Under the pieces are notes generated by a model that saw nothing but the letters and a program-made list of their open reading frames with translations, was not told the origin of the DNA and did no database searches. The translations under genes and the position numbers were made by a program. DNA of 64,000 bases from Collinsella ihumii (lineage in GTDB: Bacteria > Actinomycetota > Coriobacteriia > Coriobacteriales > Coriobacteriaceae), in NCBI RefSeq assembly GCF_900046475.1, contig NZ_FCOU01000005.1, forward strand, positions 124,001 to 188,000. Reading direction: 5' to 3'. Of this stretch, positions 10,022 through 52,773 are shown one piece after another (position 1 is the stretch's first letter; each line of letters opens with the position of its first letter).

Positions 10022-11365
10022 TTAGAACTCGAGCGACTCCAGACGGTCGAACACCACATCGACGCGCGTCAGGAACGAACGCGGATCGAAGATGCGGTCG
10101 AGCTCCTCGGAGGTCACCGTGCAGCGGGGATCCGCCTCAAGTTTCTCGCGGAACGTCGATCCCTGCTCGCACTGCTGGACCTCGCGCCACGTCGCCATAG
10201 CGTTCTCCTGCACGATAGCGTAGGCCTCCTCGCGCGTGATACCCGTCTCCACGAGGGCCAGCAGCACCTTCGAGGAATAGATCAGGCCGCGCGTCTTGTT
10301 CAGGTTCGCCATCATGCGGGCGGGATACAGAATCAGTCCATCGACGATGCGAGTCAGGCACTGGAACATGTGGTCGAGAGCGATGAAGCTATCGGCCTGG
10401 GCCACGCGCTCGGCGCTCGAATGCGAGATGTCGCGCTCGTGCCACAGGGCAACGTTATCGAATGCGACCTGCGCATTGGCCTTCACGATGCGGGAGAGGC
10501 CGCAGACCTTCTCGACCGTGATGGGGTTGCGCTTGTGGGGCATGGCGGAGCTGCCCTTCTGACCCTTGCGGAACGGCTCCTCGGCCTCGAGGGTATCGGT
10601 CTTCTGCAGATTGCGAATCTCGGTCGCAATGCGCTCGCAGGTCGCGGCGGTCGTCGCCAGAACGCCGGCGAGATACGCATGATGATCGCGCGAGATGACC
10701 TGCGTCGACAGCGGATCGTGCACGAGACCCAGATGCTCGCAGACATACTCTTCGACAAAGGGCTCGATCGAGGAGTAGGTTCCCACGGCGCCGGAGATCG
10801 CGCCGAACGCCACGGCCGCACGGGCCTCCTTCAGGCGATCGTAATCGCGCTTGAGCTCCCAAGCCCAGCTGCCGAACTTCATGCCGAAGGTCATCGGCTC
10901 CGCATGGATGCCGTGGGTGCGCCCGACGCACAGCGTGTCGCGCTCCTCGAACGCACGGCGCTTGCAGATCTCGCCGAGCTTCTTGCAGTCTTCGATCAGG
11001 ATGTCAGTGGCCTGAACGAGCTGGTAGCACAAGGCCGTGTCACCCAGATCGGAGCTCGTCATGCCAAAGTGCACCCAACGGCTCGGCTTGGGCTCTCCCT
11101 CGGGAACATCCCTGTCGATATACTCTCCCATGTTGGTGAGAAACGCGATGACATCGTGGTTGGTCACGGCCTCGATGGCGTCGACCTCTTCCTTGTTGAA
11201 GGCGGCGTGCTCGCGAATCCAAGCAGCCTCCTCCTTGGTGATCCCGATCTTGCCGAGCTCGGCCTGTGCCTCGCAGGCGAGCACCTCGATCTCCTGCCAG
11301 ATGGCGTACTTGTTCTCCAGCGAGAAGATATGGCCCATCTCCGGACGGGTATAGCGGTCGATCAT
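10022..11365 (-). CDS. purB: Adenylosuccinate lyase
   Basis: This 447-residue enzyme cleaves SAICAR and adenylosuccinate in purine synthesis, releasing fumarate. The protein begins MIDRYTRPEMGHIFSLENK from the ATG at 11365, which has an AGGAG six bases upstream; the longer in-frame reading to 11458 has no such support. The fumarase/aspartase-superfamily signature GSSAMPHKRNP, containing the mobile catalytic loop serine, is visible at about residue 270. HFGMTSSDLGDT and GRTHGIHAEPMTFG supply the other active-site segments. Length and motifs are normal. A TACAAT hexamer (minus strand, 11409-11414) may be its -10 box. Confidence 0.96.
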   Translation of the reverse strand: MIDRYTRPEMGHIFSLENKYAIWQEIEVLACEAQAELGKIGITKEEAAWIREHAAFNKEEVDAIEAVTNHDVIAFLTNMGEYIDRDVPEGEPKPSRWVHFGMTSSDLGDTALCYQLVQATDILIEDCKKLGEICKRRAFEERDTLCVGRTHGIHAEPMTFGMKFGSWAWELKRDYDRLKEARAAVAFGAISGAVGTYSSIEPFVEEYVCEHLGLVHDPLSTQVISRDHHAYLAGVLATTAATCERIATEIRNLQKTDTLEAEEPFRKGQKGSSAMPHKRNPITVEKVCGLSRIVKANAQVAFDNVALWHERDISHSSAERVAQADSFIALDHMFQCLTRIVDGLILYPARMMANLNKTRGLIYSSKVLLALVETGITREEAYAIVQENAMATWREVQQCEQGSTFREKLEADPRCTVTSEELDRIFDPRSFLTRVDVVFDRLESLEF

Positions 11366-11484
11366 GGCGGCTCCTTTTTGAATATTGGCACGCTGTTGGT
11401 ACCGCTCTATTGTACGCGGTGCGAGCGCTCTTTTCTCTTTGCCCTCGGGGGTGGGCACATTCGACAGATTTGCTCATGTGGAGC

Positions 11485-11524
11485 TTTTTGGGGACGTGAC
11501 CGTTTTAGGGACAGTCCCTAAAAA
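11485..11524. repeat. REP-like fragment with AGGGACAGTCCCT palindrome
   Basis: TTTTTGGGGACGTGACCG is followed by the palindrome TTTTAGGGAC-A-GTCCCTAAAA (11503-11523). The first part resembles the GGGGAC cores at 971, 27.6 and 47.6 kb; the second is the same core as the two palindromes between dnaN and recF. It lies directly downstream of the duplicated tRNA-Gly tail and upstream of purB. Confidence 0.75.
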
Positions 11525-11528
11525 TATC

Positions 11529-11766
11529 AAAAAGGCACCATTGCTGGTGCCTCTGTAAATCCTGGAGCGGGCAACGGGACTCGCGCGCACGCTGGCGCGA
11601 GCGCGCAGCTCCGAGGCGCTGCGCGCCTCGGACGCTCGCTGGGAAACGCTCACGCGTTTCCGCAGCCTCGCGACCCCGACGGGTTCGAGTCCCTGCAGCG
11701 GCGCTCACACGAAAAAGGCACCATTGCTGGTGCCTCTGCAAATCCTGGAGCGGGCAACGGGACTCG
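11529..11766 (-). repeat. Duplicated tRNA-Gly 3' end plus terminator flanking a 128-bp GC-rich insert
   Basis: A 55-bp direct repeat (11529-11583 and 11712-11766, one mismatch, 183-bp period) contains the last 21 nt of tRNA-Gly including CCA and the following terminator (GAGGCACC, loop, GGTGCCTTTTT). Between the copies is a 128-bp insert (11584-11711). Read in the tRNA direction it holds an antisense T-arm (GGGACTCGAACCCG), then hairpins GGAAACGC-GTGA-GCGTTTCC and CCGAGGCGC-GCA-GCGCCTCGG. The same architecture follows tRNA-Ala at 52.5 kb. Confidence 0.85.
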
Positions 11767-11820
11767 AACCCGCGAGTGTCAGCTTGGGAAGCTGATGCCT
11801 TACCACTTGGCGATGCCCGC
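11746..11820 (-). tRNA. tRNA-Gly (CCC)
   Basis: On the minus strand the gene reads GCGGGCA at the 5' end and TGCCCGC at the 3' end for a perfect acceptor stem, followed by T and an encoded CCA (75 nt in all). The anticodon loop is TTCCCAA, giving CCC. The T-loop is GGGTTCGAGTCCC. A promoter lies upstream and a strong terminator immediately downstream. Confidence 0.95.
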
Positions 11821-13086: not shown

Positions 13087-16000
13087 ATGAGACTGGTGTC
13101 AGGGGATGATTATCGTTCGTTAAGTCGTTCATATCTGAGAACGTATGGAAGATTGCAATTCAATTCATCACGGCGCGAACGGTCGTTTATCAAGAGAATT
13201 ATCTTGGACAGGATTTCCTCCGTAGTCATATGCGCGCTCTGTCTTGTCGCTTGGCTGCTCTATCTTGTCTTCGCATCTCCCCAGCCTGCCGCCGCGGATC
13301 CGATCACGGTGAAGGTCTCGCAGCTCGTCACCAACCCACACTCAAAGGGCGGAACGGGACACTTCATCCGTGTTGAAGGACCGACCTCCTCGGTCGCCTA
13401 CTGCGCCCAAGGCTGGCTCATCACTCCTCCCGAGGGCCAAAACCTCGAGCGCTACGGATCACTTGAGATTCCCGAGCTCGACTACGTGATGTACCACGGC
13501 TACGACGGAACCATGGTCACCTCCGTCTACGGCCTCGATGAGCAGCGCTCGGAGATGGCGACCATGGCAGCCGTATGGCTTGCCATCGGAGACAAGCGCG
13601 GCGACATCCTCAATTTCATCCCCAACGTGGATGAGCCCTTCCATGGCAACAAGATGTATCTCGAGCGCTGGCAGAGCATCGAAGACGAGTCGATCAAGCA
13701 GGCCGCATACGACCTGTACCAGGAAGCACTCGACTACGCCGAGGACGGCGGTGGCGGCATCGAAGAAGGCTGCGCCACGTTCTGGAGCAATCGCAACGCA
13801 TACGAAGCCGATGGCACATTCAGCTACCAAGGGGTCATCACGGCCGACAAAGAGCTGCTCGTCACCTTCTGCAAAGTGTCTGATGATGAAGCCGTGACCG
13901 ATAACAACGAGGCATACAGCCTTGCCGGCGCGGAATACAGCATCTACCTTGCCGAAAGCGACGACCTCGTCGCTTCGTTCGCGACCGATGATGAGGGTCG
14001 GGCAACATGCCGTCTTAAACCGGACACCTCGTATTACGCCGTCGAGACCAAAGCGCCTGCCGGATACGAGCTCAACGAGGAGCGCATCGAGTTCGTCACC
14101 GAACAGGATGCCATCGAGATCGTCCTGACCGACTCTCCCCAACGGCTCCAGCTCACCGTCAAGAAGGTGGACGCAGCGACCGGAAACGACGCGCAGCCGA
14201 CGTTAAGCCTGGAGGGTGCAGAGTTCTCCATCACCGACGCACAGGGCAACACAAGAACGAGCACCATCGATGGCACAGGGACGGCGACGATTGAAAACCT
14301 CCCCCTCGGACCCGTCTATGTCCAGGAGACGAAGGCTCCCACGGGCTACGTACTCGACGAGACGGTTCATGAAGTCATCCTTGGCGATGCGGAAGGTGAC
14401 GATGAGCTCGCGCTTACCCGGGAACTTATCGTTGAGAACACGCCCGTTGCCTTCGACATCGCGATTGAGAAGACGCTAAATGGCGAGGCTGCCGATGAAT
14501 CAGCCAAGGGCATCGCATTCGATATCATCTCGAACACGACCGATGAGGTTGTCGGGACGATCGTGACCGACGAGACGGGCCACGCGGATACAACCGACAC
14601 ATGGTTTGGAGCTGGCACTCGTCCCGACAACGCGTCCGGTGCGATTCCCTACGACGCTGCGGGATACACCGTCCGCGAGGACCCGGATACGACACCCGAT
14701 GGATTTGAGGCCGCAGAACCGTGGAACATCACGGCGGATCAGATCGTCGATGGGGTCAGCCTGTCATTCGATGTCGACAACGCCGTCGTCGCATCGCAGC
14801 TCACCATCGTGAAGGTAGACAAGGCGACGGGACAGCCCATACCCCTCGCGGGCTTTACCTTTAGCATACTCGACGCCCAGGGCAACCAGCTTTCGGCAGA
14901 CTCCTGGTTCCCAACCGCACCGGAGCAGGAAACGTTCACCACAGACGAGACAGGCACCGTCGCCATTCCCCAGAAGCTGCGCCGTGGGACGTACTGCGTC
15001 AAGGAAACGCAAGCGCCCGAGCCGTATCTTCTTGCCGACGAATTGATTCCCTTTGAAGTCGAAGCCTCATCCGATGAGCCAGCCGTGGTCGTTGAGATCG
15101 CCGATGCCGCGGCGACCGGACAGGGCAAGATCGTCAAGACCGGTAGTCAAAATGAATCTCCTTTAGCAGGAGCCGCGTTCGATGTCGTCGCGCAACTGGA
15201 TGTTGTCGCACCCGATGGTACGGTGCAGGTTCGGACCGGCGAGATCGTCGACCAGGTGATCACCGATGAAGACGGCATCGCGACCACCAAAGAGCTTCCC
15301 TTGGGTTCCGGCGAGGCGACCTATGCGTTTATCGAAACCGCAGCACCCGATGGTTATGTCGTCAATCCGGATCCCGTCCCCTTCACGCTTTCATATCAGG
15401 ACCCGGAAACCGAGGTCGTGACCACCGAGGTCACCTGCACCAACGACCCCACAACGGTCACCATCACCAAGGTGTCTGCAGGCGACCAGGAGCCTGTCGC
15501 CGAGGCGACCTTTGCCCTGACGCGCATCGACGAGCAGGCCGAATCGCCTTCAGCAGGAGAAGCGGAGGAGACACCCGACATAGGTGCTGAGGAGCCCGAT
15601 GGCGATACCGGCGTCAACGACGATGACGGCACCGATAGCGGCAGCGATGCCGAGGGCGACACCGACATCGTCGAAGACCGATCTTCAGACGAAGCGACGG
15701 CGGATGATGCCGAGGACGCGCAGGATGCCGCCGAAGACATGGAGTCAGGCAACCCTGATCCCGACGAGCCTGCGGATGACTCGATAGTCGAGGAGCCCGG
15801 CAGCACCTATACGACCGATGCGGACGGCACGATCGCCATCACCTGCCTCGCCCCCGGAACCTATCGTCTTCAAGAGCTCGAAGCTCCCGCAGGCTATCTC
15901 GTCGATGACGCACCGCGCGAATTCACGGTCGACCAGGACGGCTTGATCGACGGCTCCTCGATGTTGAGCCTTACGTTCGAGAACGACTACACCAAGGTCG

Positions 16001-17112
16001 ACATCTCTAAACGCAGCTCAGTTGACGAGTCATGCTTGGCGGGAGCCCACCTTACGCTCATCGATGCCGAGGGCAAGGAGGTCGACTCCTGGGAAACGAG
16101 CGACACGCCGCATCGTATCGAAAAGATCGCCCCCGGAACGTATCAGCTTGCGGAAACCGAAGCACCCGACGGATACGACACGGCAGGTGCCATGGAGATC
16201 GTCATCGAGAAAACGGCGGAGGTCCAGGCATTCACCCTGTATAACGACCCGGTGGAAATCGCCGCTCTCGTGGACAAGCAACGCGTGAACAGCGAGGGGT
16301 CTTCGGGAGACCGAGAAACGTTTTCTTATGTGATTGATGCCAAGAACGACAGCTCGTCATGGGTCGACGAGTGCACGGTCACCGATACGCTCGATAGCGC
16401 CCTCCAGGGTCTGGTCGAGTTGACGAGCGTCACCACGCCGATCGTGCAAGGCGATCACGACGGCCTTCTCAACGTGTGGTACTACCTCGCCGACTCCGAT
16501 GCGCAGCCCGAGACGAGCGATGCGAACGCGACTACCGCCGACGACGAGGGCAACCCCCGACTTGAAGAGGAGCAGCAAGAGCTCATCACCGGCGACGACC
16601 AGCGCGTCCTCGACTACAACGGCTGGCATCTATGGGCAGAGGGCGTAAGCACCTCCGAGGCGACCACGCTTGATGTTGCCGACCTCAACCTCGCCACCGG
16701 CAGCCTCATCACCGCCGTGCGGTTTGAATTCGGACGCGTTGAAGAGGACTTCACGACAAGGGCCGACCTCGATGCCTCCAGCCTCCTCAAAGATGAGCAA
16801 GACACTGTCGAACCCGAGGAAATAGGCTCCGAGGACCTCTCCCCCATGCGCATCGAGATGCGCGCGAGCGCAACGTACGTCTCGGGAGACGCCGTCGTCA
16901 ACTCCGTCCAGATCGACGAGTACCGCAACGGAGGCGGAAACGGTCTCGAGGCTCATGACACAGACCTCGTCCGGTACGAGGGTGAACCGGAGTTTCGCCC
17001 GCTCGATCAAACGGGCTTCCACATCATCGGCGGGACGCTCTTGGGCACCGGCGCCATCTGCGCCTTCGGGGCTTGGGCGGGTCTCGGCAAACGGACGCGA
17101 ACCATTCGCTAG
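13087..17112 (+). CDS. Large SpaA/Cna-B-type surface adhesin with degenerate thioester domain
   Basis: A 1341-residue cell-wall protein. A membrane/signal segment lies at about residues 38-65. Residues 70-260 resemble a thioester domain: C106 in VAYCAQGW matches the thioester cysteine, but the usual T-Q-x-A-V-W is TMAAVW, so the glutamine is M160. Repeated SpaA/Cna-B domains follow, each with a lysine strand (VKKVDAATG, IVKVDKATG) and an E-x-x-A-P-x-G-Y strand (ETKAPAGYEL, ETKAPTGYVL, ETAAPDGYVV, ELEAPAGYLV, ETEAPDGYDT). One domain is split by a strongly acidic insertion of about 90 residues. The C-terminus has a sortase-like motif LDQTG, a membrane helix and a basic tail. It opens an operon ending in a sortase. 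AAGGAGG precedes the ATG. Confidence 0.85.
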   Translation: MRLVSGDDYRSLSRSYLRTYGRLQFNSSRRERSFIKRIILDRISSVVICALCLVAWLLYLVFASPQPAAADPITVKVSQLVTNPHSKGGTGHFIRVEGPTSSVAYCAQGWLITPPEGQNLERYGSLEIPELDYVMYHGYDGTMVTSVYGLDEQRSEMATMAAVWLAIGDKRGDILNFIPNVDEPFHGNKMYLERWQSIEDESIKQAAYDLYQEALDYAEDGGGGIEEGCATFWSNRNAYEADGTFSYQGVITADKELLVTFCKVSDDEAVTDNNEAYSLAGAEYSIYLAESDDLVASFATDDEGRATCRLKPDTSYYAVETKAPAGYELNEERIEFVTEQDAIEIVLTDSPQRLQLTVKKVDAATGNDAQPTLSLEGAEFSITDAQGNTRTSTIDGTGTATIENLPLGPVYVQETKAPTGYVLDETVHEVILGDAEGDDELALTRELIVENTPVAFDIAIEKTLNGEAADESAKGIAFDIISNTTDEVVGTIVTDETGHADTTDTWFGAGTRPDNASGAIPYDAAGYTVREDPDTTPDGFEAAEPWNITADQIVDGVSLSFDVDNAVVASQLTIVKVDKATGQPIPLAGFTFSILDAQGNQLSADSWFPTAPEQETFTTDETGTVAIPQKLRRGTYCVKETQAPEPYLLADELIPFEVEASSDEPAVVVEIADAAATGQGKIVKTGSQNESPLAGAAFDVVAQLDVVAPDGTVQVRTGEIVDQVITDEDGIATTKELPLGSGEATYAFIETAAPDGYVVNPDPVPFTLSYQDPETEVVTTEVTCTNDPTTVTITKVSAGDQEPVAEATFALTRIDEQAESPSAGEAEETPDIGAEEPDGDTGVNDDDGTDSGSDAEGDTDIVEDRSSDEATADDAEDAQDAAEDMESGNPDPDEPADDSIVEEPGSTYTTDADGTIAITCLAPGTYRLQELEAPAGYLVDDAPREFTVDQDGLIDGSSMLSLTFENDYTKVDISKRSSVDESCLAGAHLTLIDAEGKEVDSWETSDTPHRIEKIAPGTYQLAETEAPDGYDTAGAMEIVIEKTAEVQAFTLYNDPVEIAALVDKQRVNSEGSSGDRETFSYVIDAKNDSSSWVDECTVTDTLDSALQGLVELTSVTTPIVQGDHDGLLNVWYYLADSDAQPETSDANATTADDEGNPRLEEEQQELITGDDQRVLDYNGWHLWAEGVSTSEATTLDVADLNLATGSLITAVRFEFGRVEEDFTTRADLDASSLLKDEQDTVEPEEIGSEDLSPMRIEMRASATYVSGDAVVNSVQIDEYRNGGGNGLEAHDTDLVRYEGEPEFRPLDQTGFHIIGGTLLGTGAICAFGAWAGLGKRTRTIR

Positions 17113-52416: not shown

Positions 52417-52492
52417 GGGGGTTTAGCTCAGCTGGGAGAGCGCGGGCTTTGCAAGCCTGAGGTCAGGGGTTCGATCCCCCTAACCTCCACCA
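52417..52492 (+). tRNA. tRNA-Ala (TGC)
   Basis: A 76-nt gene with acceptor GGGGGTT/AACCTCC that includes the G3-U70 identity pair of alanine tRNA, anticodon loop TTTGCAA (TGC), and encoded CCA. The 3' end is duplicated downstream. Confidence 0.96.
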
Positions 52493-52717
52493 CGATCATG
52501 ATGACCTCGCCACGGCGAGGTTTTTTCATATCTGGGGGCCGTGCATGGGGATCGAACCCCGTTCGGGGCCGGATCCCGAGTAAACGCGCGCGCGTTTGCC
52601 GGGGGCCGACGCAAGGCGCGCAAGCGCCGCAGCGCTGAGCGGTTGCGCAGCAATCGCGGATCCCCCTAACCTCCACCACGATCACGATGACCTCGCCACG
52701 GCGAGGTTTTTTCATAT
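52473..52717 (+). repeat. Duplicated tRNA-Ala 3' end plus terminator flanking a 127-bp GC-rich insert
   Basis: A 59-bp direct repeat (52473-52531 and 52659-52717, one mismatch, 186-bp period) contains the last 20 nt of tRNA-Ala with CCA and the terminator CCTCGCCACGGCGAGGTTTTTT. The 127-bp insert carries an antisense T-arm (GGGGATCGAACCCCG), then TAAACGCGCGCGCGTTTG and GGCGCGCAAGCGCC hairpins, the same order as the insert after tRNA-Gly. Confidence 0.85.
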
Positions 52718-52773
52718 TTGAGGGCCCCATGGCGTGCGTTCCCAAAGGCGACTGGCGATACTAGACGGGTCTA

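Follow-up and report, generated by a model that had tools for sequence, protein, structure and literature searches.

Elements of RtT-like anatomy behind tRNA and tmRNA genes of Collinsella and related bacteria

Behind the gene for tRNA-Gly(ccc) of Collinsella ihumii, the 3' end of the tRNA and its terminator are found a second time. This arrangement raises the questions of what is located between the two copies, whether other tRNA genes are followed by such a unit, and how the unit is kept matched to its host gene. The locus is part of a window of 64,000 nt, the whole stretch of DNA that was analysed. As a previous sequence-only reading had stated, the repeat comprises 55 nt, at 11529-11583 and 11712-11766, with a spacing of 183, one mismatch and an insert of 128 bp. 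The antisense T-arm described in the same reading is also present, as an inverted repeat, CGGGTTCGAGTCCC/GGGACTCGAACCCG, at 11680-11693 and 11759-11772. The features of this unit, and of a second one in the window, are as follows; R1 and R2 are covariance models described below.

11746-11820, minus strand: tRNA-Gly(ccc), host of the element (ARAGORN; Rfam RF00005, 63.5 bits)
11746-11766, minus strand: last 21 nt of tRNA-Gly, from the T-loop to CCA
11712-11737, minus strand: terminator 1 (hairpin and T run), between tRNA-Gly and the element (by eye; part of the 55-nt repeat)
11694-11711, minus strand: spacer from terminator 1 to the left arm (by eye)
11680-11693, minus strand: left arm, reverse complement of the host T-arm (GGGACTCGAACCCG) (inverted repeat, fold, model R1)
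within 11680-11693, minus strand: first part of the left arm, 5' strand of the closing helix P1
11584-11679, minus strand: core, consisting of the rest of P2, then P3, P4 and P5 (fold z -4.85; R1, R2)
11563-11583, minus strand: second copy of the last 21 nt of tRNA-Gly (direct repeat; 22 of 24 tail positions match), containing the right arm with the 3' strand of P1, the acceptor strand and CCA
11529-11554, minus strand: terminator 2, copy of terminator 1 (direct repeat; terminator scan)
52417-52492, plus strand: tRNA-Ala(tgc), second host in the window (ARAGORN)
52547-52664, plus strand: Ala element with left arm (52547-52560), core and start of the right arm (R1, R2)
52659-52726, plus strand: copy of the tRNA-Ala tail with terminator and about 14 nt further (direct repeat, 96%)

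Tail copies in the C. ihumii genome

The predicted fold of 11570-11698 has an energy of -85.4 kcal/mol (z -4.85), and none of 200 shuffled sequences folded equally well. Instead of the two strong hairpins assumed in the earlier reading, four inner helices and a closing stem were found in the Gly insert. Model R1 matches 11576-11694 with 92.2 bits and R2 gives 85.9 bits, the Gly sequence being part of both training sets. Overlapping reading frames of the Gly unit reach only 78 aa and do not indicate a coding role. A simple terminator scan called terminator 2 and missed terminator 1; due to the way in which the scan counts T, this result was given no weight. The next gene downstream of tRNA-Gly(ccc), at 10022-11458 on the minus strand, is presumably adenylosuccinate lyase-like, judged from the protein by eye, and the reading frame at 13087-17112 (1341 aa) encodes what we take to resemble a surface protein anchored in the wall, with domain repeats and a membrane segment at the C-terminus. 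Other short palindromes or repeats between genes, TAGGGACAGTCCCTA for example, adjoin units in the window (11508-11522) and downstream in L002, L004, L031, and L113.

Behind tRNA-Ala(tgc) the parallel repeat has 68 nt, at 52473-52540 and 52659-52726, which are 96% identical with a spacing of 186. To see how common such copies are, the last 24 nt of each of the 52 tRNA genes in the genome were compared with the 900 nt downstream of the same gene. In 12 cases the tail recurred between +130 and +200 with no fewer than 19 positions matching, while only 9 out of 2536 cross tests, in which a tail was compared with a tRNA of another amino acid, reached this number. The hosts are the genes for Ala(cgc), one of two Ala(ggc), Ala(tgc), Gln(ttg), Glu(ttc), Gly(ccc), Leu(cag), Leu(taa), Lys(ctt), Ser(gct), Thr(tgt), and Val(tac). 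The remaining strong tail matches, at other distances, are plain tandem tRNA genes. Two further observations were made in this genome. A terminator-like motif (AAACAGCAGGTCAGACACGG...) follows the second tail of Gln(ttg), that of Thr(tgt), and Gly(tcc), and may have been left by an island. A short way upstream of tRNA-Ala(cgc), at 1279-1440 of locus L103 (contig C13 of the genome), a 6S RNA-like sequence scored 34.5 bits, below the gathering threshold of 46.4.

Conserved structure, distribution and match to the host

Eighteen units of one subfamily were aligned (A1) and model R1 was built from this alignment. R1 was run over 128 sources, 83 and 75 matches were aligned as A2 and A3, respectively, and R2 was built from A2. 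The order within a unit is host tRNA with its tail, terminator 1, left arm, core, tail copy, and terminator 2, and a truncated next unit often follows. In A1, helix P1 closes the left arm with the tail copy, and the inner helices are P2, often with a GNRA loop, P3, P4, and P5; several of the inner stems are interrupted by GA-rich internal loops. In this alignment 97.3% of the cells pair, and further pair types show no excess (13 versus 13.0 in shuffles). In A2, 96.7% of the cells are paired compared to at most 44.3% with slid partners, both sides changed in 39 of 40 pairs, and the covariation score is 0.402 (0.126 shuffled); in A3, the respective values are 96.3%, at most 45.0%, 38 of 40 and 0.430 (0.127 shuffled). 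Fitting A2 and A3 to the model biases these figures toward the structure, but the slid controls are nevertheless far lower. Pairing of the P1 arms amounts to 94.0% of the cells in A2 and 92.9% in A3. On the tRNA-sense strand, GU and UG together occur 151 times versus 62 times for AC and CA, besides 132 other mismatches (A2 and A3 combined). This excess indicates that the tRNA-sense strand is likely the folded one.

The claim that the design behind tRNA-Gly is repeated behind tRNA-Ala was borne out by R1: built without the Ala insert, the model gave 62.3 bits (E 1.6e-9) for the Ala element, and R2, which included it in training, gave 79.1 bits. The Gly and Ala inserts thus share structure, and the searches with R1 and R2 revealed the arrangement in other genomes as well, in agreement with the family of tRNA-tail elements that had been suggested. 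In L007, L008, L013, L016, L017, and L018, second and third units of 130-134 nt are present behind tRNA-Gly(ccc) of relatives, in which the right part (P5 and tail) is as in unit 1, and the left halves are different and variable. Judging from their sequences, these units represent a second, modular kind of tail unit.

R1 matches were obtained in 39 of 43 Collinsella genomes, including 36 of the 40 good ones, and R2 added one more (G001). In the order, R1 matches are present in 44 of 197 genomes and 7 of 89 genera, and in the phylum, searched with strict filters, in 12 of 396 genomes, all of them belonging to family f1. R2 was applied to 40 chosen genomes, eight of f1 without R1 match and 32 of other families. 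Matches were detected in five of these, G001 and G185 of f1, G096 of f5 (E 2.2e-9), and G082 (E 2.9e-6) and G036 (E 5.3e-4) of f6, and the element thereby spans three families of the order. The other 35 chosen genomes, among them 27 of the 32 from other families, gave no R2 match. Nine R2 matches were found in the chosen genomes, eight of them with upstream DNA, and all eight, six in f5 and f6, lie 25-57 nt behind a tRNA gene. A typed-pattern scan for one subfamily detected 21 stretches in Collinsella and Ca. Limicola, with C. tanakaei ET10 and ET30 and Ca. C. stercoripullorum among the carriers.

The loci studied were drawn from among the matches listed in the searches, including those of the genus, the order and Glu(ttc). 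In these loci, 146 distinct matches were obtained; 115 of these begin 50-68 nt behind a tRNA gene (median 54), and 22 are located 71-500 nt behind one, mostly as later tandem units. One of the 22, in L189, is found 126 nt behind a tRNA gene without a preceding unit. For three matches at contig edges upstream sequence is missing, and six have no called tRNA. Two of these six have genes for tmRNA as hosts, in L174 with a tail copy and in L206, where the tail copy is lost (Rfam 146.7 and 142 bits, respectively). Two others follow a 3' fragment of tRNA-Lys, one comes after a tRNA-Ser tail with which an island ends, and the sixth is a weak antisense overlap (E 0.023). For the model-fetched subset (L121-L218) with 104 distinct matches, 76 are at a distance of up to 70 nt, 18 at 71-500 nt, seven have no called tRNA, and three are at edges. 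Not a single clear case of insertion at an unrelated place was found among the 146 distinct matches, of which the three at contig edges could not be judged. Comparisons with the host gene were carried out for 133 units, a set without duplicates, matches shorter than 90 nt, hostless matches, and one host without T motif (L134). These units are distributed over 22 tRNA kinds, with none for the tRNAs of Asn, Asp, Cys, His, Ile, Met, Pro, Trp, and Tyr, be it through gene order, a preference for certain T-arms or sampling.

In the 133 units, the right tail is clearly specific for its host. Mean identity to the host is 0.93 compared to 0.58 for other tails, and in 109 units no other tail among 38 is better than that of the host. 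The left arm fits the host T-arm at 13.4 of 15 positions and other T-arms at 11.4. None of 24 T-arms beats that of the host in 88 units, but some other T-arm fits better in 45. Only a short part of the left arm is specific for the host, and it matches by pairing, including G-U, rather than as an exact inverted copy. Identity between copy and host was determined in 93 first units with host-encoded CCA and copies at least 75% alike, compared without gaps. It is 0.97-1.00 from the T-stem to the acceptor, 0.92-0.97 for the discriminator and CCA, and 0.80, 0.67 and then 0.58-0.75 past the CCA. In 108 units with copies at least 70% alike, 13 changes were counted in 756 cells of the acceptor strand of the copy, five of them retaining a pair with the 5' strand of the tRNA, and 30 changes in 432 cells of the discriminator and CCA. 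The filters behind these sets of units, and behind the fold comparison below, favour intact units. The tail copy is absent in six of 114 first units. From these comparisons the tail copy is constrained, whether through RNA function or through the danger of a damaged copy at unit loss. A need for CCA in the copy was rejected, since hosts without genomic CCA, for example Ala(cgc) and Phe, have copies without CCA. The 22 nt upstream of the left arm were also considered as a host-specific mimic of the acceptor stem, but the energies for the own and other hosts were -6.36 and -5.97 kcal/mol, respectively, and only 12 of 96 tests placed the own host in the best 10%, so that the mimic was rejected.

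Comparison with RtT and other known systems

The repeats of the E. coli tyrT operon, long a curiosity with one small RNA, had been named as the nearest parallel, and rightly so. In E. coli K-12, the tyrT/tyrV tail repeats are tandem 178-bp units behind a tRNA, and the tyrV tail recurs with 19 of 19 matches at +159, +337, and +515. The left arm of these units, GGGGAAGGAT, is complementary to ATCCTTCCCC of the tail copy, an inverted-tail arm like that of the Collinsella units, and the CCA of the first tail copy is also where the annotated rttR ends. In both systems a unit with a structured core is situated behind a tRNA and closes with a copy of its tail. Differences are found in the inner helices, which are arranged otherwise in the Rfam RtT model (RF00391), in the hosts, being 22 tRNA kinds and tmRNA in Collinsella and relatives, and in the terminator preceding the Collinsella units that were read, as none was seen by eye between E. 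coli tyrV and rtT. In searches with the models, the two did not match each other. The Rfam RtT model produced four matches of 133-138 bits in the E. coli region, but, with limits of E 10 for the Gly element and E 0.1 for six loci with other units, none in these. Conversely, the best R1 match in the E. coli region (1.8 kb) had 8.6 bits (E 0.23), and R2 gave none up to E 1. RtT-like DNA is contained in 4695 of 5426 E. coli genomes. The Collinsella elements are RtT-like in anatomy as far as can be judged from sequence, and membership in RF00391 is not supported.

According to passages of PMC4986893, RtT RNAs upstream of the genes for Asn- and Lys-tRNAs of Actinobacillus gave Northern signals; the release of RtT RNA from tRNA transcripts is cited there, and Bosl and Kersten 1991 is mentioned. 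An excerpt of PMC2864571 presents the Collinsella-1 RNA motif (RF01700) as a structured RNA candidate of Actinobacteria and the human gut. This motif was absent from the window at the gathering threshold, from the Gly element up to E 10 and from the six loci up to E 0.1. Rfam searches of the window, the Gly element and the six loci at gathering and relaxed thresholds did not bring any family near its cut-off for the elements. Besides tRNA and antisense tRNA, the best hit on the Gly element was MH_s15 with 21.3 bits versus a cut-off of 123 (E 0.0018), which was taken as chance. No description of these elements in Collinsella or Coriobacteriia was found in a literature search of weak coverage, with most subscription papers outside it.

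REP/BIME-type repeats and MITEs are likewise short, non-coding, repeated and hairpin-forming. Unlike them, the Collinsella elements show tight linkage to tRNA or tmRNA tails, a host-specific right arm, and a four-helix junction. With islands integrated at tRNA genes and flanked by att direct repeats they share the duplicated tRNA 3' end, but the units have only about 180-200 bp, no room for an integrase, and a conserved RNA structure.

Origin and possible role of the units

The reading that we prefer, at a probability of roughly one half, is that of an RtT-like family of structured RNAs tied to tRNA and tmRNA tails, which is inherited with the tRNA, changes in unit number and exchanges its cores. 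Polymerase reading through the tRNA terminator would make the element RNA, which would be cut free in tRNA processing and receive its 3' end from the tail copy, like E. coli rttR. Units would pass on with their tRNA, tandem copies would be gained and lost by recombination between the direct repeats, and recombination may also exchange cores between loci. The arms would stay with the host tail, or selection for pairing would pull them back to it. One guess is that the element RNA could act as a sink or a signal coupled to the output of tRNA. Several observations speak against this reading. Since terminator 1 precedes the element, most transcription should end before it. The conservation of the copy could be due only to the damaged tail that unit loss would otherwise give the tRNA. 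For the acceptor strand of the copy, no host-specific partner is present directly upstream, which makes an RNA reason for keeping this strand less evident. The better fit of other T-arms to a third of the left arms, the Collinsella and chosen genomes without match (4 of 43 with R1; 35 of 40 with R2), and the lost tail copy of the tmRNA element in L206 also count against it.

The extent and number of units vary. In 114 first units, the homology of the first tail and terminator to the second copy breaks off close to the terminator in 22, directly ahead of the left arm in 15, within the left arm or P2 in 29, and in the core in 18; in 24, according to a chosen cut, it extends to a full second unit. 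Behind Glu(ttc), compared in 21 close species with G006 left out, one unit is present in 14 species, including G039 with a broken tail, two in G012 and G014, and none in G017. In G009, G023, and G041, tRNA and element are separated, with about 37 kb between them in G009 and 42 kb in G041. In G017, the tail, terminator and left arm are joined to the flank that is found after the unit in G018. Many hosts carry a unit in one species and none in another; Lys(ttt), Thr(cgt), Arg(ccg), and Phe, for example, are empty in C. ihumii (G000) and filled in relatives. Lys(ttt) shows this contrast between G000 and G013, a picture that unit loss as in G017 would also leave. G021 lacks the Thr(cgt) core.

In places, cores from different loci of a genome are very similar. 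In G016, those of Arg(cct) and Gly(ccc) are 95.8% alike and the arms are different. Overall, however, mean core identities lie close together, with 0.760 between genomes for one host, 0.752 between hosts within a genome, and 0.732 when both differ. The nearest core of the 133 was from another genome and host in 55 cases, from another genome and the same host in 45, from the same genome and another host in 18, and from the same genome and host in 15. On a tree of 114 cores at least 67 changes of host label are needed compared to 89.5 after shuffling, and 80 changes of genome label compared to 94.0; with few columns and 62 of 111 inner branches open, the tree was used only for such counts against shuffles. 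From these data, core history appears to be part vertical inheritance and part exchange between loci. In L040 (G022), the left arm of tRNA-Ala(cgc) is joined to the core, tail and terminator of tRNA-Leu(cag), which may be recombination between units or an assembly misjoin. In L278 (G082, another family), the tail copy behind Ser(cga) matches the Ser(gct) tail of C. ihumii and not that of its host, which suggests transfer between loci.

The units could alternatively stem from a non-autonomous mobile element targeting T-loops, for which an enzyme supplied in trans would insert the core into or behind the tRNA tail and duplicate tail and terminator. We regard this as the strongest competitor, though an unlikely one. 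It would fit the patchy presence with hosts empty in G000 and filled in relatives, the identity of tail-terminator copies in several cases, the almost identical cores with different arms in G016, the frequent host changes over 22 host kinds, and the tail copy of L278. On the other hand, apart from the antisense overlap and the three matches at edges, all 146 matches are at tails of tRNAs, tmRNAs or their fragments. Host labels cluster on the core tree, which argues for much vertical inheritance, and the left arm is matched through pairing including G-U, not as an exact inverted copy. In addition, the Gly element of the window has no match in phage or plasmid records. The mobility suggested in the sequence-only reading would agree with patchy presence, changing unit numbers, and almost identical cores bearing unlike arms, but recombination among units already in place would agree with them too. 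Neither mobility nor the template switching at the T-loop that was suggested there as well could be demonstrated.

A second alternative dispenses with RNA function. If units are frequently lost, a defective copy would damage the tRNA, and second-order selection on the DNA repeats could keep the copy intact for this reason only, with the core being a leftover hairpin array. The Glu(ttc) junction in G017 is what such losses would produce, and it is the T-stem and acceptor that are kept most strictly, CCA, which can be rebuilt by an enzyme, being looser. Compensatory changes in nearly all core pairs and the excess of GU over AC on one strand are left unexplained, and we consider this alternative improbable.

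The element might also yield an alternative tRNA, if a read-through transcript refolds so that the T-arm is replaced by a large structured branch. The left arm would invade the host T-arm, the 5' acceptor strand would pair with the tail copy, and the unit would act as if inserted in the T-loop. If true, this swapped fold would account for the retained acceptor strand in the copy. According to predicted energies, it is lower in all of 90 first units whose copies are at least 80% alike and form six or more acceptor pairs, on average 10.9 kcal/mol below the fold with the own tail; the free optimum contains the swapped acceptor in 81 and the own acceptor in none. For E. coli tyrV-rtT, -95.0 and -83.1 were predicted for the swapped and own fold, respectively. 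With left arm and core shuffled in 27 of 30 units drawn, the swapped fold was still favoured in 26, by a mean of 4.9 kcal/mol. Nearly half of the effect is thus built into the test, and folding energy was rejected as proof. Furthermore, pairing with the 5' strand survives only 5 of the 13 acceptor changes in the copy, and a transcript that folds while it is being made should prefer the normal tRNA. Such a refolded tRNA appears highly doubtful.

Even less probable is that the tail copies are attachment-site decoys or scars of islands integrating in tRNA 3' ends. Some att cores are about 18 nt in size, comparable to the conserved block here, and islands at tRNA-Gly (L222 4562-5980, G010) and before a Ser tail (L223 12103-13233, G054) carry genes with a tyrosine recombinase motif and separate the element from its tRNA. 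These genes, called by a loose motif and by eye in six stretches, are situated upstream of the first tail; no convincing recombinase was found at a tail copy in the six stretches. In L219 and L220, one long frame each with the loose motif was discarded as its sequence is unlike a recombinase. The 128 bp between the repeats leave no room for a recombinase gene, and a core structure conserved across three families is not expected of a scar. Chance or assembly artefacts can practically be dismissed. GC-rich hairpins are common and L040 is perhaps a misjoin, but 12 of 52 own tails stand against 9 of 2536 cross tests and the same architecture is found in dozens of assemblies.

If the preferred reading of an RtT-like RNA family is true, about one in four tRNA genes of a gut bacterium, and in some cases tmRNA, bears the RtT design with a core unrelated to that of RtT. 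The tRNA transcripts of distant bacteria may then carry a whole class of tail-closed RNAs, which annotation has missed because the tail resembles tRNA and the remainder resembles filler. The many natural hosts and unit numbers would make the effect of the element RNA on tRNA supply testable, and likewise the way in which a non-coding element keeps its arms matched to the host gene.
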